Below, in pieces: positions 17,459 to 57,054 of a stretch of DNA of 64,000 nucleotides. The notes beneath the pieces were generated by a model that was not told the DNA's origin, ran no database searches, and saw nothing but the letters and a program-made list of their open reading frames with translations. Origin of the DNA: a virus; IMG/VR virus record IMGVR_UViG_3300032246_002701, positions 1 to 64,000 of that record; one strand, 5' to 3'. A program made the position numbers and the translations under genes. Each line of letters opens with the position of its first letter. Position 1 is the stretch's first letter.

Positions 17459-17459
17459 A

Positions 17460-24690: not shown

Positions 24691-24693
24691 TTG

Positions 24694-25026: not shown

Positions 25027-25054
25027 AGAAAGGCTCTTTGGGGCCTTTCTTTTT
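25027..25054 (+). terminator. Rho-independent terminator of tmRNA
   Basis: An 8-bp stem (AGAAAGGC / GCCTTTCT) and a T run directly behind the tmRNA coding piece. Confidence 0.9.
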
Positions 25055-25132
25055 GATTAATATTTGAATATCTAATTGTAACAAATAAGTTTACAAAATT
25101 TAATAAATAAATGTTTAAAGGAGGGCAAGTTT

Positions 25133-30678: not shown

Positions 30679-30901
30679 GGTCACACTTTTAGGCAATAAA
30701 GTAATTGTCGGTGATATGCCCATTAACACAGCCTTAAGAAAATTTAAACAGAAAGTAGATGATTCTGGAATTTTAGAAACTCTTCGAGAAAAGATGTTTT
30801 ATGAAAAACCCACTTCTGTAAGAAAGCGTAAAAAGGGTGCAGCCCGTGCCCGTTGGTTAAAAAAACTACGCGATCAAGAATTGCCCAAAAAAATGTACTA
30901 A
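30656..30901 (+). CDS. rpsU: Ribosomal protein bS21
   Basis: 81 residues with the bS21 pattern: INTALRKFKQKVDDSGIL near 27-44, MFYEKPTSVRKRKKGAA near 51-67 and RARWLKKLRDQ. It overlaps the end of clpX by 23 bases. Phage bS21 is known in several large phages and is thought to enter host ribosomes and bias initiation toward phage mRNAs. The N-terminus is ~20 residues longer than bacterial bS21. In this phage many mRNAs appear leaderless or hairpin-controlled, which makes a role in start selection attractive. Confidence 0.9.
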   Translation: MNNNKSNKVTLLGNKVIVGDMPINTALRKFKQKVDDSGILETLREKMFYEKPTSVRKRKKGAARARWLKKLRDQELPKKMY

Positions 30902-30908
30902 TTTTTAG

Positions 30909-30937
30909 TTGACTAATTTTTAATTCAGATGTATAAT
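30909..30937 (+). promoter_or_regulatory. Near-consensus sigma70 promoter
   Basis: TTGACT, 17-base spacer, TATAAT. It drives the exonuclease gene at 30988, likely early. Confidence 0.8.
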
Positions 30938-30987
30938 ATCTGAATGACAAATAAAGAAAAACTAAACAAAAAGCCGGAGTATAATGC

Positions 30988-31518
30988 ATGCCGCGTCATT
31001 GTATGATAGATTTAGAGACTATGGCGGTTAGTCCCAATGCTGTAGTTCTCAGTCTTGGTGCAGTACACTTTGATCCTTATAGCAACGGATACAGTAAATC
31101 TCTCTATTTTAAAATTGATCTCGATGACCAAGATAAATTAGGTAGAGAAATTGATCCAAATACATTAGATTGGTGGGCTAGGCAAGATATTGAAATTATG
31201 GAAGAAGCATTCAGCCAAGAAGGTAGAATTTCACTGGTAGATGCTCTAGATCAATTTCACAAATTTGCATGGGGCTGCGATGCGTTTTGGAGCCACGGTG
31301 CTACGTTTGATATTGTAATTCTAGAAAACATCTATCGACAACTTAATAAATCACTGCCATGGAATTATTGGCAGATTCGTGATACGCGCACTCTTTTTGA
31401 TATTGGATTTTCTCCCGATATGCCTAAAGAGAATAAACATGATGCGTTGCAGGATGCTATTCGACAGTCAGTGGGTGTTCAAAATGTGTATGCAAAACTT
31501 AATTTGCATACACAGTAA
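30988..31518 (+). CDS. DEDD-type 3'-5' exonuclease (DexA-like)
   Basis: 176 residues: MIDLETM at 6-12 (Asp-x-Glu), FWSHGATFDIVIL near 94-106 (second Asp) and KHDALQDAI near 151-159 (His and last Asp), the DEDDh set of the DnaQ superfamily. It resembles T4 DexA and related phage exonucleases that degrade host DNA. It has its own sigma70 promoter and CCGGAG site, fitting early expression. RNase T-like activity is the alternative. Confidence 0.85.
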   Translation: MPRHCMIDLETMAVSPNAVVLSLGAVHFDPYSNGYSKSLYFKIDLDDQDKLGREIDPNTLDWWARQDIEIMEEAFSQEGRISLVDALDQFHKFAWGCDAFWSHGATFDIVILENIYRQLNKSLPWNYWQIRDTRTLFDIGFSPDMPKENKHDALQDAIRQSVGVQNVYAKLNLHTQ

Positions 31519-31938
31519 TCATTTGAACCAACCGATTTTTTCTCCTGAATCCGTTCTTCGTTGCCATTCATCTAAACTTCCAGGAAATCTCCAAGCCCAA
31601 AGCGAAACCAAAAACATTACGATTCCTGTGCCTGCAACTGCTTTCCAGTTGTAGGTAGTAAACCAGATGATTAATAATGAACAGTCCATTGTTAAAAACA
31701 TAGCCCATTTTCCAACAGTAGGAAATACTCTCTTTTCTCCCCAGTTGCGTAAAAATGGTCCGAAAAGTTTATGATTCATGATCCAATTATGCATACGCTC
31801 GCTGCTACGACTAAAACAGAATGCTGCAATCACAATGGGAGTACTCCAGGGTATCCCTGGAGTAATAACTCCTATATAGGCAATACCTAAAAATATTATC
31901 CCCAATGTGAACCATATCGCTTTCTTAATTTTATTCAT
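31519..31938 (-). CDS. DUF454 (YbaN-like) inner-membrane protein
   Basis: 139 residues with three to four hydrophobic helices (about 5-30, 72-100, 100-115). The segment GVITPGIPWSTPIVIAAFCF followed by RSSERMHNWIMNHKLFGPFL is the DUF454 signature, known from YbaN. ATG at 31938 is chosen behind AAGGAT; a TTG two codons upstream is possible. It is convergent with the exonuclease, sharing its end. The cellular role of YbaN is unknown; in a phage it probably alters the inner membrane. Confidence 0.75.
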   Translation of the reverse strand: MNKIKKAIWFTLGIIFLGIAYIGVITPGIPWSTPIVIAAFCFSRSSERMHNWIMNHKLFGPFLRNWGEKRVFPTVGKWAMFLTMDCSLLIIWFTTYNWKAVAGTGIVMFLVSLWAWRFPGSLDEWQRRTDSGEKIGWFK

Positions 31939-32008
31939 GATCAAACATCCTTTTAAATATTTATTCGTTTGATTTTTTAGGCAAATTTTGTTAAAGTTAA
32001 ACTGAGGT

Positions 32009-32308
32009 ATGAAAAAACTAGAAAATGAAAGTTACGAGTCCTGGGCAAAACGTGTTCGAATGTATGAGCACGGTTATGCTATGCAGCGTATTGCTCAAGG
32101 AGAAAACACAGATAAGGTACTCGAAGATATGGCCAATCGGCTATTAGAAAAACTACTGCATCCGTTATACGGAGAAATAAAAGAAGCAACTGCTCAAAAT
32201 TATGATGCGGAGCAGAGCAAAAAAGAATACACAGAAAAATATTTAAATCTGAGAGGGAATCCAGTTGCTGATCAAATTGACGGTGAAATATTTGACAAAC
32301 CTGAATAA
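32009..32308 (+). CDS. Hypothetical helical protein
   Basis: A 99-residue, strongly helical, acidic protein (MKKLENESYESWAKRVRMYE) with a MANRLLEKLLHPLY helix and a disordered tail. GAGG before the ATG. It precedes the hsp20 unit and has no recognised motif. Confidence 0.55.
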   Translation: MKKLENESYESWAKRVRMYEHGYAMQRIAQGENTDKVLEDMANRLLEKLLHPLYGEIKEATAQNYDAEQSKKEYTEKYLNLRGNPVADQIDGEIFDKPE

Positions 32309-32314
32309 ATTTTG

Positions 32315-32322
32315 TATAAATA
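32315..32322 (+). promoter_or_regulatory. T4-type late promoter of hsp20
   Basis: Exact TATAAATA, giving a leader of about 70 bases before the hsp20 start. Confidence 0.7.
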
Positions 32323-32325
32323 TAT

Positions 32326-32394
32326 TTGTAGGACGCCGATAGGGTTCTACAATGGGCACGGTGCCCGAAATGATTCTTGCTTATTAAAGGAGAA
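32326..32394 (+). promoter_or_regulatory. ROSE-like RNA thermometer candidate
   Basis: Three consecutive hairpins: TTGTAGGAC/GTTCTACAA (32326-32352, 9 bp), GGGC/GCCC (32354-32366), and TTCTTGCTT/AAGGAGAA (32374-32394). The last hides the AAGGAG ribosome-binding site with a single bulged G in TTGCT, the hallmark of ROSE thermometers in small heat-shock genes. Heat would melt the weak A-U/G-U stem. Confidence 0.6.
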
Positions 32395-32399
32395 AAACA

Positions 32400-32822
32400 A
32401 TGAATCAACTTGCACGTTTTGACACAACTTCATTAAACAAAGCACTTATTGGTTTTGATCGTATTTTCAACGATTTTGAAAATCGCTTTCAGCACTCAAC
32501 AACCAATTATCCTCCCTACAATGTTATCAAACACGACGAAAATACTTTCGAAATCGAAGTAGCCGTTGCTGGTTTTGATCGAGAGGATATTACTGTTCAA
32601 GTGGATCAAGATCAATTGATCATTAAAGGGAAAAAACCCAAAGAGGAAGATACCACGCAGTATCTGCATCGAGGTCTTGCTACTCGAGATTTTGAGCGTT
32701 CCTTTACTCTCGCTGAACACATTGTGGTAGGCGACGGCGAAATGATCAATGGTATTCTAAGAGTTAAACTGACTCGTGAGGTTCCGGAATCTCTAAAACC
32801 TCGTTTGATCACTATCAAGTGA
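32400..32822 (+). CDS. Small heat-shock protein Hsp20
   Basis: 140 residues with an alpha-crystallin domain: YNVIKHDENTFEIEVAVAGF near 39-58, QLIIKGKKP near 70-78, HRGLATRDFERSFTLAEH near 88-105 and NGILRVKLTREVPE near 116-129. The N-terminus (RFDTTSLNKALIGFDRIFNDF) is of the IbpA type. It prevents aggregation of unfolded proteins and is often carried by cyanophages. Here it is a single-gene unit with a late promoter, structured leader and terminator. Confidence 0.93.
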   Translation: MNQLARFDTTSLNKALIGFDRIFNDFENRFQHSTTNYPPYNVIKHDENTFEIEVAVAGFDREDITVQVDQDQLIIKGKKPKEEDTTQYLHRGLATRDFERSFTLAEHIVVGDGEMINGILRVKLTREVPESLKPRLITIK

Positions 32823-32835
32823 GTTAAATAACTCA

Positions 32836-32858
32836 GGGGGGAAAATACCCCCCCTTTT
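32836..32858 (+). terminator. GC-rich terminator after hsp20
   Basis: Six G (32836-32841) face a run of seven C (32848-32854) across an AAAATA loop, followed by TTTT. Confidence 0.85.
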
Positions 32859-32869
32859 AAAAATAAATT

Positions 32870-33175
32870 ATGACTATTGCTCCTACTCTAGAAAAACAAA
32901 ATAACACAACAGATAAATTTAAAGATCCAGGAAAGTATAAAGTTATACTCTGTAACGACGATGTTACACCCGTAGATTTTGTAATTTCTCTTTTGATATC
33001 TATTTTTAGACATACAGAAACTTCTGCTGTAGACTTAACCTTAAAAGTTCATAACACAGGGAGTGCCGTAGCAGGGATATACTCTTATGAAATTGCAGAA
33101 CAAAAAAGATCAGACGCGCTAAGTTTGGCTCGTAATCAAGGTTGGCCTTTGATAATTAAAATAGAATCAGAATGA
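32870..33175 (+). CDS. clpS: ClpS, N-degron adaptor of Clp proteases
   Basis: 101 residues. The ClpS core is clear: YKVILCNDDVTPVDFVISLL with the Asn-Asp-Asp at 29-31 that binds the alpha-amino group, LTLKVHNTGSAVAGIYSYEIAE with the conserved His61, and WPLIIKIESE at the end. ClpS hands N-end-rule substrates to ClpA or ClpC and blocks other substrates from ClpA. No clpA lies here, so it would act on the host protease. Carried by a phage together with ClpX and a tmRNA, it suggests deliberate steering of host proteolysis. No Shine-Dalgarno is visible; the leader is short and A/T-rich. Confidence 0.85.
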   Translation: MTIAPTLEKQNNTTDKFKDPGKYKVILCNDDVTPVDFVISLLISIFRHTETSAVDLTLKVHNTGSAVAGIYSYEIAEQKRSDALSLARNQGWPLIIKIESE

Positions 33176-38540: not shown

Positions 38541-38548
38541 TATAAATA
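38541..38548 (+). promoter_or_regulatory. T4-type late promoter
   Basis: Exact TATAAATA directly behind the terminator, 21 bases before the next start codon. Confidence 0.65.
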
Positions 38549-39002: not shown

Positions 39003-39488
39003 ATGATCAAAACTCTAGCAGCAATGGTGGGATTTATTCTTATTTCAAGTTCTGCACCACTACATGCAGAACTTGTCCACCAATTTAAAAGTCCATCTTT
39101 CAATGGCCAGGGCTGGAGCAGCCATGTTCTAACCATTGACAGTATTGAAAAAAACCGTAAAGATGCGATTGAATCTCAGAAAAAATCTGACGAAGCACGG
39201 GCATTATCTGAAGCACAAAACACACCATTGAATAGATTTTTCAATCTTTTTCAAGGGCAAGTATATGCACAACTGGCTAACCAATTAACTGATAGCCTAT
39301 TTCGAAATGATTGTAAAAATGCTCAAGGTACAATTCCAGGTTGTATAGGACCTACTACTGGAACATTTACACTAGACGGAAATACCGTGACCTGGCTCAA
39401 GAATAACAACGAAGTTACATTAACAGTGGTGGATGCAAAAGGCACAATAACCACAATGCGAGTACCTATCGCAAGTTTTGCATTTTAA
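39003..39488 (+). CDS. csgF: CsgF-like curli assembly protein
   Basis: 161 residues. After a signal peptide (about 1-22) comes the CsgF opening ELVHQFKSPSFNGQGWSSH (FxNPSFGG type), a helical middle (LNRFFNLFQGQVYAQLANQL) and a C-terminal beta part with LTVVDAKGTITTMRVP. In bacteria CsgF caps the CsgG pore and couples export to nucleation of amyloid fibres. It opens the curli-like operon, with csgG 9 bases downstream. Confidence 0.85.
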   Translation: MIKTLAAMVGFILISSSAPLHAELVHQFKSPSFNGQGWSSHVLTIDSIEKNRKDAIESQKKSDEARALSEAQNTPLNRFFNLFQGQVYAQLANQLTDSLFRNDCKNAQGTIPGCIGPTTGTFTLDGNTVTWLKNNNEVTLTVVDAKGTITTMRVPIASFAF

Positions 39489-39497
39489 GGACTATAA

Positions 39498-40313
39498 ATG
39501 AAACTATCAAAACTTTTACTAACTTCTTTGATGTCATTTATGTTAATCGGATGTAACACTGTACGACCTTTGCAGGAAATATCAATTACTGATCAGCCTG
39601 TAGTTTCGACAACTATATCTAGAGAATTTTCTCGTGCTCCTAGGCCTGCAGGCCCTCCTATAGCAATTGCGGTTTATGGGTTTAAAGATCTAACAGGACA
39701 GCGTAAGCCGTCCGCTAATCTAAGTTTATTTTCAACGGCCGTCACTCAAGGTGCCGAGTCGTATTTGATTAGAAGTTTACAAGAAGTAGGAAACCGCCAA
39801 TGGTTTACTGTAGTAGAAAGAGTGGGCCTGGATAATCTACTAAAAGAACGGCAGATGATCAAACAGACTAGAGAAATCTATGATGGTGCTAATGCCAAGG
39901 CATTACCCCCGCTTACACTGGCTGGCGTGATATTAGACGGTGGTATCATCGACTATAATACTAATACTCGAACTGGAGGTACTGGGGCTCGATGGTTAGG
40001 TATAGGCCCAAGCACACAGTATACACAAGATCTTGTAGTGATCAGTCTAAGATTAATCAGCGTTCAAACTGGAGAAGTTTTGACCACTGTAACAGTTGAA
40101 AAAAATCTTTTGAGTACAGCAGAAAGTTTAACAGTAATGAAGTTTTTTAATCAGGCAACTCGTGCCTTTGAATTTGACAGCGGCCAAACATACAACGAGC
40201 CGACTACATACGCATTAAGATCTGCTATTGAACAGGCCGTTTTAGAATTGATCAGTAGCGGAGAAAAAACAGGTTTATGGAAAACTATTCAAAATAACAC
40301 TAGGAGTAAGTAA
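39498..40313 (+). CDS. csgG: CsgG-like outer-membrane curli export lipoprotein
   Basis: 271 residues with a lipoprotein signal (lipobox LIGC, Cys19). CsgG motifs: PIAIAVYGFKDLTGQRKPS near 54-72, VVERVGLDNLLKERQMI near 107-123, LTLAGVILDGGIIDYNTNTRTGG near 137-159 with the transmembrane hairpin, and LRLISVQTGEVLTTVTVEK near 186-204. CsgG forms a nine-fold outer-membrane pore for curlin. The stop codon shares a base with the curlin start. Confidence 0.92.
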   Translation: MKLSKLLLTSLMSFMLIGCNTVRPLQEISITDQPVVSTTISREFSRAPRPAGPPIAIAVYGFKDLTGQRKPSANLSLFSTAVTQGAESYLIRSLQEVGNRQWFTVVERVGLDNLLKERQMIKQTREIYDGANAKALPPLTLAGVILDGGIIDYNTNTRTGGTGARWLGIGPSTQYTQDLVVISLRLISVQTGEVLTTVTVEKNLLSTAESLTVMKFFNQATRAFEFDSGQTYNEPTTYALRSAIEQAVLELISSGEKTGLWKTIQNNTRSK

Positions 40314-41101
40314 TGAAAAAAATAGTATTAGCATTAGCATTAGGAATAGCATTTTCAGCAAGTGCACAGACTCAGGTTGCAGCCCCAATTGCTCCTGCTG
40401 TACCTAGTACAGTAACAGTTAGTCCAAATGCTGCAGCAGCACTAGCCAGTCAATCAACAAATCGTGTGTTTATTGATCAAAGCGGTATTAATCCCGATGT
40501 TAATATAACACAGGACGGATCAGGTAATCGAGTGGGCAATATTAACCGCCCTATGTATCTTAGAGGTGCTGATCAAAAGGTAGTCACTATTCAAGAAGGT
40601 ACTAACAATCAAATTGACCTTTCGGTAGTTAATCCAAGTGTAGGCGAGACTGTAGGGGCCACTGTTACTATTCGACAGTTAGGAAATAGTAATTCAGTTG
40701 ACGCTGCTTGCGGGTCGGGTACTGCCAGCGATGGGATCACTAATCTTTCTGGATGTAAAGACGCTAATCTAAATTGGAAATTTGACGGTAATAGCAACAG
40801 TTTACAATTTCGCGGTACAGGTGATTCGCTACGCAGCTCTATCGATGTTGCTGGAAATGGCAATATTTTCATTGTTGACGCATTAGGCAACAACCAAAGT
40901 CAAACTATTACAGTTTTAGGAAACGACAACACTTTTAATCTAAAACAGAACAGCACAGGTGCAAGCGGATCGAGCATTCTTATTGATCAAAATGGAACCG
41001 GTGCTATCTACAATATACAGCAAAGCGGTAATATTGACAATGTGGTCAATATCAAGTCTGTGGCCACAGGTGGATCATTTAATATTTTACAGAAAAACTA
41101 A
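40313..41101 (+). CDS. Curlin-repeat (CsgA/CsgB-like) secreted protein
   Basis: 262 residues. Signal peptide to about 19 (SASA), a Pro/Ala linker, then imperfect curlin repeats of the N-x-x-x-I-x-Q-x-G-x-x-N kind: FIDQSGINPDVNITQDGSGN, VTIQEGTNNQIDL, VTIRQLGNSNSVD, ILIDQNGTGAIYNIQQSGN. Two Cys near 137 and 153 are unusual for curlin. It is the expected cargo of the CsgG pore and could build amyloid fibres on the infected cell. Confidence 0.85.
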   Translation: MKKIVLALALGIAFSASAQTQVAAPIAPAVPSTVTVSPNAAAALASQSTNRVFIDQSGINPDVNITQDGSGNRVGNINRPMYLRGADQKVVTIQEGTNNQIDLSVVNPSVGETVGATVTIRQLGNSNSVDAACGSGTASDGITNLSGCKDANLNWKFDGNSNSLQFRGTGDSLRSSIDVAGNGNIFIVDALGNNQSQTITVLGNDNTFNLKQNSTGASGSSILIDQNGTGAIYNIQQSGNIDNVVNIKSVATGGSFNILQKN

Positions 41102-41110
41102 GGAATATCT

Positions 41111-42172
41111 GTGAAATGGCTTACTATAGTTTTACTATTGATCAGTAACTGGGCTTGGGCCGATATCGGCTCAGTTACTGATCTTTTAGGCACGGCCATA
41201 ATCAAACGAGGTCGAGAAACTATAACACTAGTTAACGGTACAGTAGTAGCACTCAACGATAAAGTAGAAACAAAAAACGGTAAGGTAAAAATAACATTCA
41301 AAGATAATACCACAGTATCTGTAACAGAGAATAGTAGCCTAGTTATTGATGATTTCGTCTATGATCCTAAAAGCAACTCGGGCAAACTGAACCTAAAAGC
41401 AGCCAGCGGCACAGTTCGTTATGTTAGTGGTGCTATCGCACATAACGATCCTAAATCAGTAAACATTAAAACACCTACAGCAGCCATCGCGGTACGAGGC
41501 ACTGATTTTATCATGAGTGTTAACGAAATTGGTTCTAGTATGATCATATTAATGCCTAACTGCGAAGATGATGTAAAATGTGGAACTGGGGAGATTGATG
41601 TAGAGAGCGGATTTAAAATGGTTAATATGAATCAGGCATTCCAGGCGACTATCGTTGAGACTTTAGGAGCGGAACCCAGTCCTCCCATGATAGTTAATCT
41701 TATTAATTCCCCGATAGGAAATAATCTGCAGATAATACCTCCAAAGACTACAGGAGGAGTTAGTATTGTGTCTGCTGCTAGATCTGCTGCTGATAAGACA
41801 GGATATCGAAAAGACCAAGGAAACAAAGATTCTGAAGAGCAAGAAAAATCGGCAGCGGCAAACTCTAACGCACAGCCAAAGCAGGAACAGACCGAGATCA
41901 TAATCGAACCTCCTGCCGGTGAAGAAAAGATTACCGCAATCAGCACAGGTATTCCATATCTATATTCTCTCTGGAAAGATCGATCAGAACAACAACAGAT
42001 CGGCTGGTTATACGAAGTACTAAGTCCTAGTCTCAAAAATTATGTAAATATTGTAGTTCCTGCATCTAATCGAGCAGAAATAATTGTTACACAGAATTCA
42101 GAAACTAACAGTTATTCTTTTGGCCTTGATAAACCCGTAGGCAGAATTGTAGTTAATCAAACATATAGATGA
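41111..42172 (+). CDS. FecR-domain secreted protein
   Basis: 353 residues, GTG start behind AAGGAA. Signal peptide (about 1-17), then a FecR-like domain: GSVTDLLGTAIIKRG, LNDKVETKNGKVKITFKD, VSVTENSSLVIDDF and TPTAAIAVRGTDF (residues about 20-140). A disordered Lys/Glu/Gln region (about 220-265) precedes a C-terminal beta domain. FecR domains of this periplasmic type are common next to curlin genes and CHASE2 cyclases in bacteria. It overlaps the second curlin gene by 4 bases. Confidence 0.8.
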   Translation: MKWLTIVLLLISNWAWADIGSVTDLLGTAIIKRGRETITLVNGTVVALNDKVETKNGKVKITFKDNTTVSVTENSSLVIDDFVYDPKSNSGKLNLKAASGTVRYVSGAIAHNDPKSVNIKTPTAAIAVRGTDFIMSVNEIGSSMIILMPNCEDDVKCGTGEIDVESGFKMVNMNQAFQATIVETLGAEPSPPMIVNLINSPIGNNLQIIPPKTTGGVSIVSAARSAADKTGYRKDQGNKDSEEQEKSAAANSNAQPKQEQTEIIIEPPAGEEKITAISTGIPYLYSLWKDRSEQQQIGWLYEVLSPSLKNYVNIVVPASNRAEIIVTQNSETNSYSFGLDKPVGRIVVNQTYR

Positions 42173-42669
42173 AACATATTTTACTTTTAATTCTTATGTT
42201 TTCACAGATCTGTTTAGCAGCAGACAATTCTGTCTATATAGATCAAAGACCCGGCAGTGCTGATAATTCTATCACTATAGAACAAACAGTTCATAACTCC
42301 GGAAAAAACTCCACCGATATAACTATTACTGGAATAAGCAATAATGGTACAGTAAATCAAACTGCTAATTCCTCTGCTTATCATAATTTTACAGCAGTGA
42401 TTACAGGAAATACAAACACATTCAATATTACTCAAAGTGGAAACGCCGGACATGTTTTAGAGTTAACATTGTCGGGTAATGGTCATTCTGCTACTGTTAC
42501 ACAACAGGGTAATAATAGTCACCAGGCCAATGTAACCTTGATCAATGCCGGCGGTGCATCTAACTTAAATCTCAATCAGCAAAGCAATACTGGACAAAAC
42601 TACAGTCTAATTCAACAGTGTGCTAATTCTGCAGGTTGTTCAGTGTCAGTAACACAGAGCGGTCAATAA
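42169..42669 (+). CDS. Second curlin-repeat secreted protein
   Basis: 166 residues: signal peptide to about 18, then curlin repeats such as NSVYIDQRPGSADNSITIEQ, NTFNITQSGNAGH, HSATVTQQGNNSH and NLNLNQQSNTGQN, ending with VSVTQSGQ. Compared with the 40313 protein it is shorter and the repeats are more regular, so one could be the nucleator and the other the fibre subunit. Its end is 8 bases before the cyclase start. Confidence 0.85.
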   Translation: MKHILLLILMFSQICLAADNSVYIDQRPGSADNSITIEQTVHNSGKNSTDITITGISNNGTVNQTANSSAYHNFTAVITGNTNTFNITQSGNAGHVLELTLSGNGHSATVTQQGNNSHQANVTLINAGGASNLNLNQQSNTGQNYSLIQQCANSAGCSVSVTQSGQ

Positions 42670-42677
42670 ATAACTAT

Positions 42678-44729
42678 ATGAAAAAAGTTTTTCTCAATCC
42701 TTGGATGGCCGCAATAACACTGTTGCTGGTATTGATTATTCGTGTGCTAGATCCCAGTTTTGTTGAATCAGTTAGGCTACGTTATTTTGATCAGTTGGTT
42801 ACTAGTCAGCCTATACAGGATATACCAGTTAATGTAGTAAACATAGATGAACAGACACTAGATCGATTCGGTCAGTTTCCATTTCCTCGAGATATCTATG
42901 CTAAAATTATTCGAACCCTTTATGATCGAGGTGCTGGTCTAGTTGTATTCAATGTGCTAATGCCCGAGCCAGATCGATTTAATAAAGATGCTGAATTAGC
43001 ATTGACAATAGAAAAAAATCCTGTTGTATTGCCTACACTGGGGCATACTAAACAAAAGAACACCAGTCGAGAACACTTTGCCACTGTGGTCGGTCAAGAC
43101 CCTGCAGATAGGATTGTAGAATATCCCGGATTAATTGCCAATGTAGAACGACTGGAGCAGGCTGCGGCTGGGGTAGGCATAGTTAACACCTTTCCCGAGA
43201 TTGACGGAGTAGTTCGCCGAACTCCCCTAATCATAATGAGTCAGGAAAAACTATATCCCAGCCTAGCACTAGAAACTCTACGTGTGGCTGCTGGCGATAA
43301 TGCCTTTCAAGTTAAAATCGGTCATGAAGGTGTAGATGCTGTACGTGTTCCCAAGTTTGGAAAAATTACCACAGATGCGCTGGGAAGAATTTGGATTGAC
43401 TGGAGTCAACAGGCCAAACAGTATAGTCTTGCTCAACTGCCCGAAACCTTCAATGGTGAAATAGTTATTGTGGGTGTTAGTGCAGCAGGATTGGTTAATC
43501 CAATAGCGACTGCTCGTGGAGAAGTGTGGCCGCAGGATGTTCAGGCTGCTGTACTTGGCACAATGTTGTCAGGTACCACAATACAGCGGCCTGAATGGGT
43601 AGAGCAGGGAGAGATCGTGTCCCTGTTAGTTGCTGGATTTTTAGTGATATTTTTAGGGAGATGGACTTATGCATTTATTCCAGTTATTGCTGTTCTTGGG
43701 GCTAGTCATTTTATCGTGCTACATATATACGCCCAGTACCACTACCTCGTCGATATTACGTGGTTTATTTGCGGTACTGGTTTGGTATATGCTCATGCCT
43801 ATACTGTAAAGTTTGTCAGTGAATTTTTACAGAAACAACAGATACGCAAACAGTTTCAAAGTTATCTCAGTCCAGACCTAGTGGCCAAGTTGGTCAAAGA
43901 TCCTAGTTTATTAAAACTGGGCGGCGAAGAAAAAGAACTAAGCATAATGTTCACAGATGTACGCGGGTTTACCAGTATCAGTGAGCACTATGGTAAAGAT
44001 GTACAGGGTCTGACTAAAATTATGAATCGTTATATGACTGCGATGACTCGCAGGATTCTAGAGAATGATGGCACATTGGACAAATACATCGGTGACGCAC
44101 AGATGGCATTTTGGAATGCACCATTGGACGAAACACAACACTGTAAAGATGCAGTTAAAGCAGCATTGGAAATGCTTGTAGATTTAAGGAGTTTTAATGA
44201 AGAAATTAGCAAGGAAGGTATTCCTGCCTTTGGCATGGGCCTTGGCATTAATACTGGGGTTGTTGTGGTTGGTAACATGGGTAGCGAACAAAGGTTTGAC
44301 TATACTTGTCTTGGAGATGCGGTCAATCTTGCTTCCAGACTAGAAGGTCAAAGCAAGAACTACGGTGTAGATATCGTTCTAGGTCCTATTACAGCAGAAC
44401 GATTAGGTGATACATATTTCACAGTACACTTAGATAAAATTGCTGTCAAGGGTAAGAAACAGGGTGTAGACATCTATACGGTATTTTATAATCCCAAAGA
44501 TTCCGATGCTGCCGAATGGCGCCGATGCAAGAAGGTACACAACAATATGTTAAATTGCTATCGAGAAAAAAATTGGGATTTAGCAGCCAGTTTAATCCCT
44601 GGACTAAAAGGTGCGTTTAATGGCGGGTTAGATCACTACTACGACATATGGTTAGAGCGCATTGAAGAGATGCGTGTTAAGGATTTACCCAACGATTGGG
44701 ATGGAACTTATTATGCTACCGGTAAGTAG
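42678..44729 (+). CDS. CHASE2-domain class III adenylate cyclase
   Basis: 683 residues: an N-terminal membrane helix, an extracytoplasmic CHASE2 sensor domain (about 30-310; NVVNIDEQTLDRFGQFPFPR), three membrane helices (about 315-385) and a cytoplasmic cyclase (about 415-600). FTDVRGFT near 424 and YIGDAQMAFW near 470 give the two metal Asp, DKYIGD the adenine-selecting Lys, DYTCLGDAVNLASR near 540-553 the Asp, Asn and Arg. All are present, so cAMP production is predicted. It ends the curli-like operon, as in many bacteria. Confidence 0.9.
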   Translation: MKKVFLNPWMAAITLLLVLIIRVLDPSFVESVRLRYFDQLVTSQPIQDIPVNVVNIDEQTLDRFGQFPFPRDIYAKIIRTLYDRGAGLVVFNVLMPEPDRFNKDAELALTIEKNPVVLPTLGHTKQKNTSREHFATVVGQDPADRIVEYPGLIANVERLEQAAAGVGIVNTFPEIDGVVRRTPLIIMSQEKLYPSLALETLRVAAGDNAFQVKIGHEGVDAVRVPKFGKITTDALGRIWIDWSQQAKQYSLAQLPETFNGEIVIVGVSAAGLVNPIATARGEVWPQDVQAAVLGTMLSGTTIQRPEWVEQGEIVSLLVAGFLVIFLGRWTYAFIPVIAVLGASHFIVLHIYAQYHYLVDITWFICGTGLVYAHAYTVKFVSEFLQKQQIRKQFQSYLSPDLVAKLVKDPSLLKLGGEEKELSIMFTDVRGFTSISEHYGKDVQGLTKIMNRYMTAMTRRILENDGTLDKYIGDAQMAFWNAPLDETQHCKDAVKAALEMLVDLRSFNEEISKEGIPAFGMGLGINTGVVVVGNMGSEQRFDYTCLGDAVNLASRLEGQSKNYGVDIVLGPITAERLGDTYFTVHLDKIAVKGKKQGVDIYTVFYNPKDSDAAEWRRCKKVHNNMLNCYREKNWDLAASLIPGLKGAFNGGLDHYYDIWLERIEEMRVKDLPNDWDGTYYATGK

Positions 44730-45027
44730 AATTTTATTTTTATCTTGTTTGATTGCAATGAGCAATGTTTATGCACAAACAGAGCACAGCATAGAACCTA
44801 AGATTCCCCTTAAAAAACCCGAACCGCCTATCCCTGCTCCGCCGCCTGCAATGATGATTAAGCCTATCCCTGCTCCGCCGCCTGCGGGATCAGCACCACC
44901 TAGTTTAATAAAAAAACCATTTCGTGTGTGTAGTGAGACACAAACTCCAGCAAATGACAATTGTGTCCAATTAGAGCCTACTGCTGCCGGAACCATAAGA
45001 GGGCATACAGATGACGCTGATGAATGA
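44713..45027 (+). CDS. Secreted Pro-rich protein
   Basis: 104 residues; the start lies inside the cyclase gene. Signal peptide (LFLSCLIAMSNVYA), then a repeated KPIPAPPPA unit (twice), a short Cys-containing part (RVCSETQTPANDNCVQ) and an acidic end. An ATG 12 bases upstream in frame is the alternative start. It is the last part of the curli-like operon and may be a periplasmic spacer or amyloid partner. Confidence 0.6.
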   Translation: MLPVSRILFLSCLIAMSNVYAQTEHSIEPKIPLKKPEPPIPAPPPAMMIKPIPAPPPAGSAPPSLIKKPFRVCSETQTPANDNCVQLEPTAAGTIRGHTDDADE

Positions 45028-45166
45028 CATTCTTGAAGAAGTATATGGACCGTGGTTAGACGAATACACTAGAGTAGTTTTACTTTGCTATTTCTGGCCT
45101 TCGTTTCTAATGGGCAACCTAGAGTCTATGCTGCCAAAAGATCTGTCAAAAGCATTTCAAGCATAG
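45011..45166 (+). CDS. Small protein at operon end (51 residues)
   Basis: Begins inside the previous gene (ATG at 45011, or 45020 in frame). Product MTLMNDILEEVYGPWLDEY then a hydrophobic stretch (VVLLCYFWPSFLMG), possibly a membrane helix. It overlaps the end of the convergent minus-strand gene by 10 bases. No good ribosome-binding site; coupling would be needed. Confidence 0.4.
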   Translation: MTLMNDILEEVYGPWLDEYTRVVLLCYFWPSFLMGNLESMLPKDLSKAFQA

Positions 45167-45432
45167 GTTTCTTGTTGAGGAGTATAATTTTCTTGGTGTA
45201 CTAACTCCCCTTCGTCATTGTAAATCTTAACAAGATGAACTTTTTTTGACCGCATTGATGCAAAATTTTTTGCTTCTAAAAAAGACTCAACCCAATATTC
45301 TTCAGTGGTCAAAACCCCATTCTTCCAAACCTGAGTTCTTAGTCTGAACTTTTCTCTATTGTCGCCCTGTTCTTGCTTATGATGCCCTCGATCGTGATCG
45401 TGATCGTTTTTTTTATTTTTATGATCTGACAT
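45157..45432 (-). CDS. His/Asp-rich small protein
   Basis: 91 residues from the ATG behind AAAGGA. The first 25 residues (MSDHKNKKNDHDHDRGHHKQ) are a charged His/Asp/Lys tail that could bind metal; the remainder (RLRTQVWKNGVLTTEEYWVES, KKVHLVKIYNDEGELV) looks like a small beta domain. It starts 4 bases after the upstream glycosyltransferase stop, so it is the end of that minus-strand operon. Confidence 0.55.
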   Translation of the reverse strand: MSDHKNKKNDHDHDRGHHKQEQGDNREKFRLRTQVWKNGVLTTEEYWVESFLEAKNFASMRSKKVHLVKIYNDEGELVHQENYTPQQETYA

Positions 45433-45436
45433 ATTA

Positions 45437-46495
45437 TTAGTCCTTTGTATTAAAGTAGTCAAACCAAACGTCTAATGTTTTATCGGTATAATTTTTTAGG
45501 CTTATTTGGTGTGCCCATATATTTAACCTTGGAAATTTATAAGCCATCATCAGTTTATTTGAAATATTTTTACTGTCAGTTGGATCTGCATTGAATACTG
45601 GTATAGCCCAGGGAATTTCTTTACTGCCTACTAACGGTACACCTTGAGAAATAATATCTGCACCTACTATATTGAATGTTTCACTAAAACTTACTTGTAG
45701 ACCTATATCCATACTGGCACATATCTTAAGGAAATCTTCTCTAGGACACCATTGATGATTTATTAATTCGTGTCCTGAACCGTGTATCTGTTGGAAAAAC
45801 CCTCGAATATTATTAAGAACAGGCTGTCCCTGCATTTCAATACGGCCAGCATTAATGTGAAATCTTAATTTTTTACCGATTCTTTCTGCAAAATCCAATG
45901 CAGCAAATATTTGAACCATGTGATTTTTTAGTGGTCGAACGGCACCGAAACAGCCAATGTCTATAGTATCCTTGTTTCGATTAAATGATTTTTTTACATA
46001 ATCTTGCGGATAAAAATTTGGCAAATAAATCACCTTTTGATTAGTAGTTTTTTTATCCCAATTATTTAAATGCTGCAAATACAGTCTGACTTCTCTTAAA
46101 AATCTCGGAGCATTGCAGGCTAAAACTATATTTTTAAACCTACTATAATCACCTAGCCAATCCATAGCCATACCTTCGCCGGCCATAAATGGTGTTTCGC
46201 TATGCAGTCTTATGATCCATTTTACTTTTGGATGAAGTCTCTGTAGTATTTCAAATTTAGTAGGAACAACCCATAGTGCTTCAATAATTACATGAGTAGG
46301 GCGAAATGCTGTAACTTCTCTGTCAATATCGTTATTATCTTTGACCACAATTAGTTTTGAGTCGATTCCGATATTGTTTAACATATCATTAACAAAACTT
46401 GCTGAATTATAAAGACCTGTACTAAGTCCTATATGAGAATGTACAATGGCACTATAGTCTTCTCTACGCTTAAGAATAAAGAGCACTCTTGACAT
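45437..46495 (-). CDS. GT-B type glycosyltransferase
   Basis: 352 residues from MSRVLFILKRR, behind GGGGAAA. The N-terminal half has the HSHIGLSTGLYNSA acceptor loop; the C-terminal half has IGCFGAVRPLKNH near 190, SMDIGLQVSFSETFNIVGADIISQGVPLVGS near 280-312, the GT4 donor site with the E-x7-type loop. It probably adds a hexose in glycan assembly. It is the first of the surface-sugar genes at this end. Confidence 0.75.
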   Translation of the reverse strand: MSRVLFILKRREDYSAIVHSHIGLSTGLYNSASFVNDMLNNIGIDSKLIVVKDNNDIDREVTAFRPTHVIIEALWVVPTKFEILQRLHPKVKWIIRLHSETPFMAGEGMAMDWLGDYSRFKNIVLACNAPRFLREVRLYLQHLNNWDKKTTNQKVIYLPNFYPQDYVKKSFNRNKDTIDIGCFGAVRPLKNHMVQIFAALDFAERIGKKLRFHINAGRIEMQGQPVLNNIRGFFQQIHGSGHELINHQWCPREDFLKICASMDIGLQVSFSETFNIVGADIISQGVPLVGSKEIPWAIPVFNADPTDSKNISNKLMMAYKFPRLNIWAHQISLKNYTDKTLDVWFDYFNTKD

Positions 46496-46558
46496 ATTAT
46501 TTTCCCCGAGTTGGTTATGCAATCTACTTTATTTAATCTTTTTTATGTTACAATCCAA

Positions 46559-47263
46559 TTACAATTTTATTTTTGCCAGTCCAAGGAATTCAAATATACG
46601 TAGGTATATCCAGCCAATGTCAAATTCCCACCATTTATGGCTAAGTTTAGCACTGGCCGGATCGGCATGATGATTATTGTGTAACTCTTCTCCTCCGATT
46701 ATTATACCCCAGGGAATTATATTAGTAGACCGATCATCGGTATTGGTGTTCCTATATCCCCACCAGTGTCCTAACCCGTTAATTACTCCGGCCGCCCAAA
46801 AAGGAATCCAAATCATTTGAACTGACCAAACTAAAATGCCCCACCATCCAAAAAGAACAAGATCCAAGATCAACATTAAGGCAATGCCTAGGTGTGGATA
46901 TGGGGTATAAACGTTTCTTTCTATCCAATCATCAGGAGTTCCCTTTCCAAAATTCATGATCATCTTGGAGTTTTTTCCTGCTAGATGATAATATCGAACA
47001 CCTTTGAGAAGAATATTCCAAATACCATACACATGAGGGCTATGGGGATCTCCGGAAATGTCAGTATCTTTATGGTGCTTACGATGTATAGCCACCCATT
47101 GTTTAGTGATCATTCCTGTGGTTAACCATAACCATGCTCTCATAAAATGACTCAAAATAGGATGGAATTCAACCCCTCTATGAGCCTGGCTTCTATGGAG
47201 ATAGAGTGTAACTGAGATAATAGTGATGTGTGTCATCACCAGTGTTGATAGAATTGTTAGCAT
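46559..47263 (-). CDS. Membrane fatty-acid desaturase
   Basis: 234 residues with the three His boxes of acyl-CoA/acyl-lipid delta-9 desaturases: HRSQAH near 23-28, HRKHH near 60-64 and HNNHH near 195-199, in a protein with four hydrophobic segments. It introduces a double bond into membrane fatty acids using ferredoxin or a similar donor. Desaturases occur in several cyanophages. With PlcP/Agt it adds to the set of genes that would change host membrane lipids. Confidence 0.88.
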   Translation of the reverse strand: MLTILSTLVMTHITIISVTLYLHRSQAHRGVEFHPILSHFMRAWLWLTTGMITKQWVAIHRKHHKDTDISGDPHSPHVYGIWNILLKGVRYYHLAGKNSKMIMNFGKGTPDDWIERNVYTPYPHLGIALMLILDLVLFGWWGILVWSVQMIWIPFWAAGVINGLGHWWGYRNTNTDDRSTNIIPWGIIIGGEELHNNHHADPASAKLSHKWWEFDIGWIYLRIFEFLGLAKIKL

Positions 47264-47270
47264 CTAGTAT

Positions 47271-47594
47271 TTAACCAGATCCGCCGGCGGCTTCTTTTTC
47301 TTCATCGGTTTTTGGCATACTATTAATCTGTTCATCAGCAATAATACGCTCTTTTTCGATAGTTTTACCTCGAAGTTGTAGAACAGTTTCTACCTTTTGA
47401 TTCAATCTTATCATGTCATTATCTAACATACGAATGCGATCAATAAGAGCAATCAGTGTACTATTAGCCTGGCTAATTACAGGCTTAACTTCTTTGGTTA
47501 CCCACCCCCACACATAATATACAAAATAACCAAGTCCACCTGCAGCAATAATTGGAAAACCATACTTATTAATAAGATCTGCAATGTTTTCCAT
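47271..47594 (-). CDS. Small membrane protein with coiled coil (paralogue 1)
   Basis: 107 residues: one N-terminal membrane helix (FPIIAAGGLGYFVYYVWGWV), a coiled coil (LIALIDRIRMLDNDMIRLNQKV) and a charged tail. The gene next to it encodes a protein of the same plan, so the two are probably duplicates. This plan occurs in holin-like and tail-membrane proteins. Its place beside the desaturase gives no further hint. Confidence 0.6.
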   Translation of the reverse strand: MENIADLINKYGFPIIAAGGLGYFVYYVWGWVTKEVKPVISQANSTLIALIDRIRMLDNDMIRLNQKVETVLQLRGKTIEKERIIADEQINSMPKTDEEKEAAGGSG

Positions 47595-47595
47595 A

Positions 47596-47871
47596 TTAGT
47601 CTTTCCTTTGGTCTATTTGTTCTGCACGACTAATTCGATCATAATCTGGTTGTAGTCCCAGAGCATGACTAACCTTGACATCAATACGTTGAAGTTGATT
47701 GGTCATAGTATCAACCCTTGCATCTAATCCCTTAATAATGCTGCCCATTCCGTTGACACTAGAAGTAACTCCAGCCAATATAAATTTTAGTGTAAGAAAA
47801 ACAAAATATCCTGCGGCCAGTGCTGCTGCAATAGGAAACCCTACTTCGGATACTAATTTTAAAAAATCCAT
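47596..47871 (-). CDS. Small membrane protein with coiled coil (paralogue 2)
   Basis: 91 residues with membrane helix FPIAAALAAGYFVFLTLKFIL and a coiled coil (GLDARVDTMTNQLQRIDVKV). Both this and paralogue 1 have GFPI followed by A/G-rich residues and GYFV at the same place. It is translated first, 1 base before the paralogue. A possible holin/antiholin-like pair. Confidence 0.6.
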   Translation of the reverse strand: MDFLKLVSEVGFPIAAALAAGYFVFLTLKFILAGVTSSVNGMGSIIKGLDARVDTMTNQLQRIDVKVSHALGLQPDYDRISRAEQIDQRKD

Positions 47872-49206: not shown

Positions 49207-50163
49207 TTACCAAACAAAGTTCTTTTTATAATATTCTACAATTTTTTCCAATTCATTATCAAAGTCGGCTTTTGTTTTCCAACCTAGTTTTTGTAATTTG
49301 ATATCATCAATGGAGTATCGAACATCTTGTCCGTGTCTAGCCGAGTCAATTACATACTCTTGTACATTAGTATCACCGTTGAACAACTTAAGAATTTTTT
49401 TAACCACATCAATATTTTGTAATTCAAAATTTCCGGAAATATTAAAAATCTCATTAACAACTCCACTGTTAATAATTGTTATAATAGCCTCGGCAGTGTC
49501 GTCGGCATGCAGCCATGTTCTGATCGGCAAGCCCTTATCATGAAGATCGATCTTTCTTCCGATACTTAGATATTTGATCGATTTAGGTATAAGTTTTTCA
49601 ACATACTGGCCTATACCATAATTGTTAGTAGGTCTCACAATAATATAAGGAATCTTGAAAGTCCTTGCCCAGGCTAATATCAGCATGTCTGCTGCTGCTT
49701 TGGTGGCACTATATGGATTACTAGGTTTAAGAAGATCGCTTTCTGAATGACTTCCTTCCGCTATATCGCCATATACTTCATCTGTTGAAAAATGCAGCAG
49801 CGTGGGCATTTTGAAATGACTTTTTTCTTTGATTAATTTCAACAGATGGTGAACTCCGTTTACATTACTTTTCAAAAAAACATCACTAGAAACAATACTA
49901 TTGTCTACGTGAGTTTCAGCAGCAGTATTAATTACATAATCACAATCATATAATCTATCAAGATCATTGATATCTGATTTAATAAATTTAAAATTAGAAT
50001 TGGAGTTAAATTCATCTAGAAAATTTTCATTACTAGCATATGTAAATTTATCTACTCCTATTACATACCATCCTTTTTCTAAACACTTACGGGTAACGTG
50101 AACTCCAATAAAACCCAGACATCCGGTTACATATACAATTTTTTTCAATTCATTTATCCCCAT
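49207..50163 (-). CDS. NAD-dependent NDP-sugar 4,6-dehydratase/epimerase
   Basis: 318-residue extended SDR: VTGCLGFIG near 12-20 (NAD loop), FSTDEVYGD near 121-129 and YSATKAAAD near 148-156 with the catalytic Tyr/Lys, IVRPTNNYGIGQ near 172-183. The Asp-Glu pair after Ser-Thr is the hallmark of 4,6-dehydratases (RmlB, CDP-glucose 4,6-dehydratase). This would make the 4-keto-6-deoxy sugar needed by the RfbH-like enzyme. The start overlaps the preceding gene by 14 bases. Confidence 0.85.
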   Translation of the reverse strand: MGINELKKIVYVTGCLGFIGVHVTRKCLEKGWYVIGVDKFTYASNENFLDEFNSNSNFKFIKSDINDLDRLYDCDYVINTAAETHVDNSIVSSDVFLKSNVNGVHHLLKLIKEKSHFKMPTLLHFSTDEVYGDIAEGSHSESDLLKPSNPYSATKAAADMLILAWARTFKIPYIIVRPTNNYGIGQYVEKLIPKSIKYLSIGRKIDLHDKGLPIRTWLHADDTAEAIITIINSGVVNEIFNISGNFELQNIDVVKKILKLFNGDTNVQEYVIDSARHGQDVRYSIDDIKLQKLGWKTKADFDNELEKIVEYYKKNFVW

Positions 50164-51835
50164 CTATTAATTTTCCAATAATCCCAATACTAGTAGTCAT
50201 GGGTTCTATATAATTTATTGTTTCAACTGGCGAAGTCTCGAACCCGTGCTTTGATAAAAGATTTGTTAATCCAGTTTCTGTAAAAAGATTTATGTGCTCA
50301 TAAAAATTATATTCACCATCAAAATGTTTAGAAAATTCTTTAGGAACTTCTACATAAAGATACCCGTCGGGTTTTAAAAACTTTTTAATATTCTGCATCG
50401 AATTGTTAATGTCACTAACATGTTCTAATACATGAGTGCAAATAACCAAATCAACTTTTTGATCTTTGATCGGTTCAACATCTATTTCTCTTTCTCTTTC
50501 TTCAACTTCGTAGACATACTTTTTGCAATTTTGAAATGCATTTGGAATCATTAGTCCCGTATCTCCACCAAAATCTAATACACTGGTGATTGATTTAATA
50601 TCAAGATATCGGCCGATAATCTGTTCTCGATTGTTACGACATTGGTTGACATTTTCTTCTCCATGATACCATTGAGAAAAATTTATAATTCCAGGACCTT
50701 CGGATTGAGCACGACTTTCAAGATATTCTCCATCCATATAATCCTTATAGTAATCTGCTTCAGATTTTAAACTAAATCGATAACTAAATCCAGCATAATC
50801 ACAATCTCGACAATGATTAATAAATCCTTGTGGTTTTGGAGTATGAGGATTTAATCTGAGGAAACGATTTAGTGTCCATCGATCCATTGTTGCTCTGTGT
50901 TTGTTGAGATTTTTGCTGCCACATACTGAACAGGAATCAATATTAGTTATTAATTCTTTGTATATAAATTTTTGATATTTTTCTAAATTTTCTAGAATAT
51001 AGGAAGGATGAGTTTCAGAAGTAGGATCAACAATCTTATGTGGATAATCTCTAAACATTCTTTCAAGTGCTTCGTACACAGTCATATGATCGTATTTTAG
51101 ATTATCTCCAAAATATCTATCTCGGGAGTGTGCCCAGCTCTTTTGTTTAGTAAGTACCTTTTCTCCATCTGTGTCATCGAGGAATGTAAAATGCCACCCT
51201 CCGTTTTTAATAAACGGATGCGTTGCCATATTTTGATCTCTTAATGTAGTAGGGAGAACTTTTTTAAAATTACCAAACTCTGTAACTATGCCTGCTACAT
51301 GCTCGGACCAATGTTTATGTAAAATATTGAATTTATAAACAAATAAATTGCAATGGAATGAGATTACCGGTCGAAGGCCATTTTTATTATATGACTTGTC
51401 CGCAAATATAGTTAGTGCCTCTTCAAAGGCAGATTTTTTAATTATCTCATCAAGGCATGAAATATAAACGATATCGTCATCCTTGGCTCCATCATCAAGC
51501 ATTACTTTATAAAGATAGTTAGCCTGGAAATGATCTCTTATCCAATCATCTGTTTCCATGTAAGGTCCTCGATCCTTGACACATTCATAATCAAGAAGAA
51601 GTTCTCCGTACTTGTCTATTTCATCTTGAAAATTATCAAATTTAACATAGATCAATTTTTCAGAGTATGGTTTGAATCTTTCATGATCAAAATTAAAGGG
51701 TTTCGGATCCCCAGTGTGTGTCTCACCTGCTTCGATGACAATAAACTTATCAACAAAATTCCAGTGCTGGTTTAATCTGATTTCGAACAGATCATTTTCA
51801 TTTAAAAACATACAGCAATCATAAACCATAATCAT
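50150..51835 (-). CDS. GT17-like transferase fused to SAM methyltransferase
   Basis: 561 residues. Residues 1-300 resemble the GT17 family (MVYDCCMFLNENDLFEIRL, KFIVIEAGETHTGDPKP, and SCLDEIIKKSAFEEAL with a DE metal site). Then a CxxC-x(n)-CRDC zinc-like knuckle (near 309-365) and a class I methyltransferase (SVLDFGGDTGLMIP near 428-441, VDLVICTHVLEHVSD near 464-478). The zinc knuckle plus methyltransferase is the C-methyltransferase style of deoxysugar enzymes. The fusion suggests transfer and methylation of one sugar. The overlap with the next gene upstream is 17 bases. Confidence 0.75.
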   Translation of the reverse strand: MIMVYDCCMFLNENDLFEIRLNQHWNFVDKFIVIEAGETHTGDPKPFNFDHERFKPYSEKLIYVKFDNFQDEIDKYGELLLDYECVKDRGPYMETDDWIRDHFQANYLYKVMLDDGAKDDDIVYISCLDEIIKKSAFEEALTIFADKSYNKNGLRPVISFHCNLFVYKFNILHKHWSEHVAGIVTEFGNFKKVLPTTLRDQNMATHPFIKNGGWHFTFLDDTDGEKVLTKQKSWAHSRDRYFGDNLKYDHMTVYEALERMFRDYPHKIVDPTSETHPSYILENLEKYQKFIYKELITNIDSCSVCGSKNLNKHRATMDRWTLNRFLRLNPHTPKPQGFINHCRDCDYAGFSYRFSLKSEADYYKDYMDGEYLESRAQSEGPGIINFSQWYHGEENVNQCRNNREQIIGRYLDIKSITSVLDFGGDTGLMIPNAFQNCKKYVYEVEEREREIDVEPIKDQKVDLVICTHVLEHVSDINNSMQNIKKFLKPDGYLYVEVPKEFSKHFDGEYNFYEHINLFTETGLTNLLSKHGFETSPVETINYIEPMTTSIGIIGKLIDGDK

Positions 51836-52634
51836 CTCTTTTCTTAAAATATTTTTTAAAACTTTCTTCCAATCCTAGCAAATTAATCCCTAACGATTTT
51901 AAATTATCAGGATTTCCGTTGTAATTTTTTGAACTCTCTGAGAGTATAAAAATTCTTTTGTTAATATTATTTGTATTACAAAAAAGTCGAGCTGCATCGC
52001 TTATCTTGTATTTTTCTTCATAAGAACAATTACAATCTTTTATTTTCCAATCATTTTCTATGCAGTTCTCAACGACTGTTGATAAATCTTGTATGCTAAA
52101 ATAATCAAAGTATCTATCATTATCTATTTTTAGTTCTTGAGTAGATGAAATAATTCTAGGAAATAGTCTTGTTGATTGCTCTCCGAGGCCGAAACAATTA
52201 AAAATACGCAGAGTATAAAAATTATTTTTTTTATAGCATAGTCTGCTTTTTATGTTTTGACCAAATCCATAACTATCTTTGGGTAGTCTATCAAAAATTA
52301 AATCTTCGGATGCGTTATTAATGTCAGTCTCTCTATCAAATTCTGCACCGGATCCTGTATTAATGAACTTACCAAAATAATCGGAATTATCGTAAAAGTT
52401 CATAAAGATCCCTAAATTATTTCTAACATCATGTAACGAATTATTATCAGTCATCACCGCTGCACAATTTAATATAACATCAAATTTATGAACTTTTAAA
52501 AAATCTTTAACTTTATAGGGATCGAGCAAGTCTAATACATCACGAGTAATCGGAGTAATTTGATACTTAGAATCAAAATATTGAGAAAGAGAAGATCCGA
52601 CAAAACCTCGTGATCCTAATACAGCTACTTTCAT
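51819..52634 (-). CDS. RmlD-like SDR, NDP-sugar reductase/epimerase
   Basis: 271 residues: VLGSRGFVGSSL near 5-16 (NAD(P) loop), ILNCAAVMTDN near 55-65, and YGFGQNIKSRLC near 122-133 with the Tyr; the Lys lies in KSRLC. It resembles dTDP-4-keto-sugar reductases and epimerases, with a degenerate core. It directly follows the TPP enzyme (overlap 4 bases), so it could reduce the keto group of its branched product. Confidence 0.75.
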   Translation of the reverse strand: MKVAVLGSRGFVGSSLSQYFDSKYQITPITRDVLDLLDPYKVKDFLKVHKFDVILNCAAVMTDNNSLHDVRNNLGIFMNFYDNSDYFGKFINTGSGAEFDRETDINNASEDLIFDRLPKDSYGFGQNIKSRLCYKKNNFYTLRIFNCFGLGEQSTRLFPRIISSTQELKIDNDRYFDYFSIQDLSTVVENCIENDWKIKDCNCSYEEKYKISDAARLFCNTNNINKRIFILSESSKNYNGNPDNLKSLGINLLGLEESFKKYFKKRDDYGL

Positions 52635-54406: not shown

Positions 54407-54509
54407 AAATACCCTCTTATAGTTATAGTCTTATTATACAGGAATGACTTTTGAATTACAAATATTTATGTGCTATTATAATGACAGTAAATAATTCAAA
54501 GGACCTCTC

Positions 54510-55214
54510 ATGGAAAAACGAGTTTTAATAACAGGAGCAACTAGGGGAATCGGCGAATCGATTGCTCGAAAATTTAAAGAAGAAAATTGGTTCGTCATAG
54601 GCACAGGTATGCATCCTCGAGATAAGCCCAGTTACCTTGATGAGTATTTTTTCTGCGATCTTAACGATAGAAACCACCTAGAACTACTAATCAGCAGAAT
54701 CAAAGATCTAGAAATTGACACGTTGGTAAACAATGCTGGAATTAATATCATTAATAACTTTTTAGAAATAAATCCTGAAGATTTTGAAAAGGTGCATTCT
54801 GTAAATGTTTTTGCTCCGTTTCGATTAAGCCAGGCACTACTTCCCCACATGGTAAAAGCACAGTGGGGACGCATCGTTAACATTAGTTCAGTCTGGGGAA
54901 AAATTAGCAAACAAGGGCGTGCCAGTTATTCTACAAGTAAATTTGGTATCGACGGATTGACAGTGTCAATGGCAAACGAGTTTGCTAGTCAAGGTATTTT
55001 GTGTAATTGTGTAGCGCCTGGATTTATTGATACAGAAATGACATGGACTAATTTAGGAACTGCAGGAGTTGAGAAAATGTTAGAAAATGTTCCAATTAAA
55101 AGATTGGCAAAAGTTGACGAGGTTGCTAATTTAGTTTATATGCTAGGTAGTGATAAAAACACTTATATTTCAGGACAGAACATTGCTATAGATGGAGGGT
55201 TTACTCGTGCATAA
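54510..55214 (+). CDS. Short-chain dehydrogenase/reductase
   Basis: 234-residue classical SDR: TGATRGIGESIA at 8-19, LVNNAGIN near 72-79, the catalytic Ser in VNISSVWG, and YSTSKFGID near 143-151 with Tyr/Lys; C-terminal APGFIDTEM and GQNIAIDGGF. FabG-like fold; keto-sugar or cyclitol reductase in this setting. The next gene, a cyclase, starts inside its end, so the two probably act in one pathway. AAAGGA before ATG. Confidence 0.88.
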   Translation: MEKRVLITGATRGIGESIARKFKEENWFVIGTGMHPRDKPSYLDEYFFCDLNDRNHLELLISRIKDLEIDTLVNNAGINIINNFLEINPEDFEKVHSVNVFAPFRLSQALLPHMVKAQWGRIVNISSVWGKISKQGRASYSTSKFGIDGLTVSMANEFASQGILCNCVAPGFIDTEMTWTNLGTAGVEKMLENVPIKRLAKVDEVANLVYMLGSDKNTYISGQNIAIDGGFTRA

Positions 55215-57040: not shown

Positions 57041-57054
57041 AAGTTCTCCTTTGT

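Follow-up and report, generated by a model that had tools for sequence, protein, structure and literature searches.

A putative curli secretion and FecR–CHASE2 cyclase signalling module on a viral genome fragment and its relatives

Gene content of the locus

The stretch of DNA analysed here (the window) comprises positions 1 to 64,000 of the IMG/VR virus record IMGVR_UViG_3300032246_002701, which is 65,511 bases long. At 39003 to 45027, the window contains a curli-like operon of seven open reading frames (ORFs), all on the plus strand and located where the original prediction, a reading of the sequence alone, had placed them. That reading was also right about what the genes encode and about their location on a phage. 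CsgF, CsgG, FecR, CHASE2 and Guanylate_cyc were matched above the Pfam cut-offs, and a curlin profile matched only curlins in the PDB. The features of the operon are as follows.

39003..39488, plus strand: csgF, 161 residues (Pfam PF10614, E = 9.6e-11, above the cut-off)
39498..40313, plus strand: csgG, the outer-membrane curli pore, 271 residues (Pfam PF03783, E = 1.6e-52)
40313..41101, plus strand: curlin-repeat protein 1, 262 residues, with an N-terminal signal-like segment (PDB profile matches, AlphaFold2 model)
41111..42172, plus strand: FecR-domain protein, 353 residues, GTG start (Pfam FecR, E = 1.5e-12)
42032..42169, plus strand: curlin-like repeat at the C-terminus of the FecR protein (Q350 conservation, motif count, profile comparison)
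42169..42669, plus strand: curlin-repeat protein 2, 166 residues (Pfam Curlin_rpt, E = 0.019, below the cut-off)
42678..44729, plus strand: CHASE2 class III nucleotide cyclase, 683 residues from an ATG, the ORF being listed from TTG 42636 (Pfam CHASE2, E = 6e-42; Guanylate_cyc, E = 2.9e-20)
44701..45027, plus strand: predicted secreted protein, rich in Pro and specific to this phage (none of 83 related loci has a homologue)

Both curlin-repeat proteins fell under the Pfam curlin cut-off (E = 0.085 for protein 1). When a profile built from protein 1 and its relatives was compared with the PDB, only two chains were matched and both were curlins (8c50, E = 1.1e-17; 8enq, E = 3.7e-6), so the curlin identity holds. 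The AlphaFold2 model of protein 1 showed a ladder of short repeated beta strands (mean predicted local distance difference test score, 78). The Pro-rich protein had been counted as part of the operon; its ORF is indeed present, probably starting at 44701, but because no homologue was found in the 83 related loci, it was ruled out as a conserved part of the module. The conserved module reaches a gene pair at 47271–47871 on the opposite strand.

Conservation of the module and its membrane protein partners

IMG/VR was searched three times separately, by the cyclase, by CsgG and by one protein of this pair (type B), with some contigs shared between the resulting samples. All 27 CsgG loci that were well flanked (at least 9 kb on either side) carried csgF, curlin and fecR genes, and 26 of them also carried the cyclase. 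The module was present on contigs of 236–344 kb, several of which encode the T4-type major capsid protein gp23. A gp23 match over the cut-off was found in 8 of 14 other module-bearing records, whereas this 65 kb fragment gave none. The window was concluded not to be host DNA or prophage cargo, since it belongs to a virus record, contains phage-type genes and has genes in common with module-bearing contigs that encode the T4-type capsid protein.

The gene pair beyond the cyclase consists of the following.

47271..47594, minus strand: type A small membrane/coiled-coil protein, 107 residues (PHROG 18771, E = 1.5e-32; weak match to holin phrog_4898, E = 1.4e-4; co-occurrence)
47596..47871, minus strand: type B small membrane/coiled-coil protein, 91 residues (PHROG 18771, E = 2.1e-29; co-occurrence)

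Types A and B are paralogous, each with a single hydrophobic N-terminal segment and, judged by inspection, a likely coiled coil. The pair is a constant partner of the curli–cyclase module: the cyclase was found in 31 of the 32 well-flanked loci retrieved via type B, and relatives of the pair occurred in 66 cyclase-retrieved loci, the window included. B preceded A in 186 of 187 pairs, and the pair lay either directly ahead of csgF (79 loci; median overlap, 31 bases) or convergent beyond the cyclase (74 loci). Among 50,697 phage records, only six contained the pair, namely the same records of Pelagibacter phage HTVC008M and Methylophilales phage Melnitz that are compared with the window below; a search of 385 alphaproteobacterial genomes, which lacked a positive control, returned no match. 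The holin family phrog_4898 was weakly matched by 14 of 31 pair members (best E = 6.2e-5), with no Pfam holin match.

Candidate late-promoter element

38541..38548, plus strand: TATAAATA, candidate T4-type late-promoter element, upstream of a DUF3307 gene and the operon

A late-type promoter element tends to precede the module on the same strand. Among 152 dereplicated loci, the 300 bases ahead of the module contained TATAAATA, which we take to be a T4-type late-promoter element, on the module's strand in 38 and on the opposite strand in 4, compared with approximately 5 in shuffles. The corresponding numbers for ATAAATA were 74, 9 and 16 in the same 152 loci. Across the window as a whole, TATAAATA was not enriched (9 found against 8.6 expected), although all nine copies were on the plus strand. 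A scan for sigma-70 promoters gave fewer sites than in shuffles.

FecR protein and its curlin-like tail

The N-terminus of the FecR protein resembles a signal peptide. Its FecR signalling domain was supported by the Pfam match and by the similarity of the model to the cell-surface signalling domain of PupR (6ovk; Foldseek E = 4.4e-5), whereas a FecR profile matched no PDB sequence. No sigma factor is encoded within the operon, to which this search was confined.

As a sequence feature, the protein ends in a curlin-like repeat. A glutamine near the C-terminus (Q350) did not vary among the 23 sequences aligned, one of them bacterial and none from annotated phage records. A strict strand-Q-turn-strand-Q motif, chosen after the alignment had been inspected, was present in 55 of 89 non-redundant FecR tails against a mean of 0.73 in shuffles. 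In profile comparisons, FecR tails matched curlin C-termini with an E-value of 6.5e-5, whereas the tails of CsgG, CsgF and the cyclase gave values of 0.3–0.96.

Cyclase

The catalytic-core residues, called complete in the original prediction, are in place (D441, K483, D487, T557, N564 and R568, numbered from TTG 42636), and D441, K483, D487 and R568 were invariant across 18 aligned cyclase sequences. The start is likely ATG 42678 rather than TTG 42636, because relatives begin at that position. The residue set of class III adenylate cyclases (two metal-binding Asp, substrate Lys plus Thr/Asp, Asn and Arg) is thus complete in the window cyclase. As is generally known for the residue roles in this family, the Lys/Thr pair indicates ATP as the substrate, and its presence here points to ATP for the window cyclase as well. 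In INPHARED, only the HTVC008M and Melnitz lineages matched the cyclase across most of its length, with an identity of approximately 39%–40%. Two loci in which the cyclase seemed to travel without curli (L007 and L010) were dismissed, as csgG was located further off on the same contigs. In approximately 20 loci (e.g., L005, 12052–12228), a small conserved ORF was observed at the end of the cyclase gene, either close to it or overlapping, often terminating in a motif such as SLNGIKxxNLCKPY.

Bacterial counterparts

FecR adjoining CHASE2 is a recurrent signalling pair in bacteria (PMC9239204, PMC5192318). In such pairs, which resemble the phage module in this respect, the FecR-domain gene lies just ahead of that for a CHASE2 cyclase, as in loci found here, or for a CHASE2 kinase (PMC5192318). 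The best 80 genome matches to the window cyclase were nearly all alphaproteobacterial by title, and 43 of these loci encoded a FecR-type protein, usually just ahead of the cyclase. In most alphaproteobacterial FecR–CHASE2 loci, in contrast to the phage module, the FecR-type protein was large, with cadherin, RTX or VWA domains in some of the examples scanned, and the neighbourhood yielded no curli gene.

Two Caulobacterales loci (L084 and L343, the latter on a 705 kb contig) differed in this respect, with csgF, csgG, curlin, FecR and cyclase genes together, that is, the gene content of the phage module without the B–A pair. In L084, the surrounding genes are chromosomal, for example TonB-receptor-like and peptidase-like genes as read from the sequence. 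The L084 cyclase clustered with the phage cyclases with a support of 100 but on a long branch, and the tree gives no direction of transfer. The FecR protein of L343 lacks the terminal glutamine. No FecR or cyclase gene was found near CsgF in 19 other Caulobacterales loci (L325–L342 and L344) or in five from the class (L164–L168). Copies of the operon on bacterial contigs, which the original prediction had named as grounds for reading the window as host DNA, do therefore occur; they are rare and lack the B–A pair, and the window itself belongs to a virus record. The existence of FecR–cyclase curli operons in bacteria contradicts a statement in PMC9599517 and makes such operons a plausible source of the phage module.

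Relation to known phage systems

The combination of cargo, sensor and cyclase on a phage had been regarded as unusual. This view was not upheld, as the gene set has already been published for marine phages and the arrangement is not new: HTVC008M, Melnitz and dozens of IMG/VR contigs have the identical csgF–csgG–curlin–fecR–curlin–cyclase order. A partial system was reported in 2020 (PMC7029224). In 2022, a lysis-related pore was suggested for CsgGF of Melnitz (PMC9004378), and a functional system was suggested for pelagiphages, both podoviruses and myoviruses, encoding CsgF, CsgG, CsgA/B, FecR and adenylate cyclase (PMC9599517). This pelagiphage type VIII secretion system resembles the window in having CsgF, CsgG, CsgA/B, FecR, a second CsgA/B and adenylate cyclase without CsgE. 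Its published description places one or two histidine kinases ahead of csgF, whereas small membrane/coiled-coil proteins occupy this place in the related loci examined here; a histidine kinase was rejected for the B–A pair, which gave no Pfam kinase match. The B–A genes may correspond to those histidine kinases or to the two hypothetical proteins in PMC7029224. In HTVC008M and Melnitz, the pair is immediately upstream of csgF, whereas in the window it lies beyond the cyclase on the other strand, separated by three minus-strand genes (45157–47263), one of which was read as desaturase-like. In relation to the literature searched, the B–A partners, the curlin-like FecR tail, the late element, the rare bacterial operons and the presence of the module on contigs as long as 344 kb that carry T4-type capsid genes are new.

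Other genes in the window

Several further genes were observed in the window. An endolysin-like gene (22605–23435; phrog_894, E = 4.4e-14) is located approximately 16 kb before csgF, and a permuted transfer-messenger RNA gene of the betaproteobacterial type, with the tag ANDAYFGETRLAA, lies at 24677–25078, giving only a hint of the host. The gene for the ribonucleotide reductase large subunit (15896–19204) is split into two ORFs of 504 and 328 residues, between which a GIY-YIG endonuclease ORF (17460–18221) is located. The region 29437–33175 encodes a ClpX-like AAA protein with a zinc finger, an Hsp20 chaperone and a ClpS adaptor, and relatives of Hsp20 and ClpS are also close to the module in many further loci. 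A surface-sugar cluster is suggested at 49207–58371 by genes encoding a 3-dehydroquinate synthase domain protein, nucleotide-sugar epimerase-like proteins and an aminotransferase.

Possible role of the module

The combined observations lead us to favour, with slightly more confidence than doubt, the reading that the phage carries a curli (type VIII) secretion module linked to a FecR–CHASE2–cyclase signalling unit, which would couple export status to cyclic AMP (cAMP) late in infection. We infer that the module is expressed late, when CsgG and CsgF would form an ungated outer-membrane pore exporting both curlin-repeat proteins. The periplasmic FecR protein, through its curlin-like C-terminus, could signal by contact to the periplasmic CHASE2 domain whether curlin is being exported or assembled, and the cyclase would make cAMP in response, presumably to the benefit of the phage. 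A host target for this cAMP is likely, given that 15 virus records yielded no cAMP-binding domain, and the phage-specific types B and A would complete the module as membrane coiled-coil proteins. A related arrangement is known in Sinorhizobium, where the signal that drives CHASE2 cyclases is sensed via the outer-membrane protein NsrA (PMC13001267). A more specific version, which we advance only tentatively, is that FecR is a dedicated export sensor: its tail would pair with curlin in the periplasm or at the CsgG pore, the FecR domain would act through CHASE2 to give a late cAMP signal, and the B–A pair would link the system to the inner membrane or lysis.

Several results weigh against this coupling of export to cAMP. 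The fold search with curlin-repeat protein 1 returned no match with E < 0.001, and the model of the FecR tail was of moderate confidence only. The tail is short and its signal in single sequences is weak, with E < 0.01 in only 4 of 136 full-length FecR proteins. In the Melnitz cyclase, the catalytic Asn is replaced by Ser, and Melnitz-infected cells showed no clumping (PMC9004378). The gating protein CsgE, already missing from the original prediction, was matched in none of 17 records, including this record and 14 other module-bearing virus records, although CsgE has been described as not essential (PMC7029224). Absences in the virus records are not firm, because the records may be fragments.

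The alternative that the module serves lysis or release is less probable. CsgG–CsgF would then be a repurposed outer-membrane pore, as proposed for Melnitz (PMC9004378), the B–A pair would be holin-like and the cyclase would act as a timer. The late-promoter element and the weak holin matches among pair members are consistent with this, as are DD-carboxypeptidase-like genes near the cyclase in nine loci and a cell-wall hydrolase or gene transfer agent (GTA)-type holin adjoining it in single loci. However, the holin similarity is marginal, spanning only 20 residues in the window protein, and the endolysin-like gene (22605–23435) is far from the pair; this reading also fails to explain why curlin proteins are retained and why FecR has a curlin-like tail. 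Somewhat more doubtful still is a change of the cell surface, in which curli on the infected cell would block superinfection or keep sibling cells near as hosts, with signalling being secondary (PMC7029224, PMC9599517). The complete set of cargo and pore genes speaks for it, but the lack of clumping with Melnitz argues against it and a surface change alone does not explain the conserved cyclase and B–A pair. An uptake pore, with ungated CsgG admitting nutrients or cofactors during infection, was proposed in the same two studies and would fit the lack of CsgE matches. It appears improbable given that the cargo is retained and the FecR tail present, and a late-promoter element would be odd for a feeding role.

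Phage curli have been puzzling since 2020, with uptake, sibling capture, superinfection defence and a lysis pore as rival ideas. The present survey narrows this puzzle to a conserved unit of up to eight genes, two of them for uncharacterised membrane proteins, which tends to be preceded by a late-type element and whose FecR protein has a curlin-like tail. If the FecR protein does act as an export sensor, the phage would be monitoring its own amyloid secretion and signalling by cAMP.

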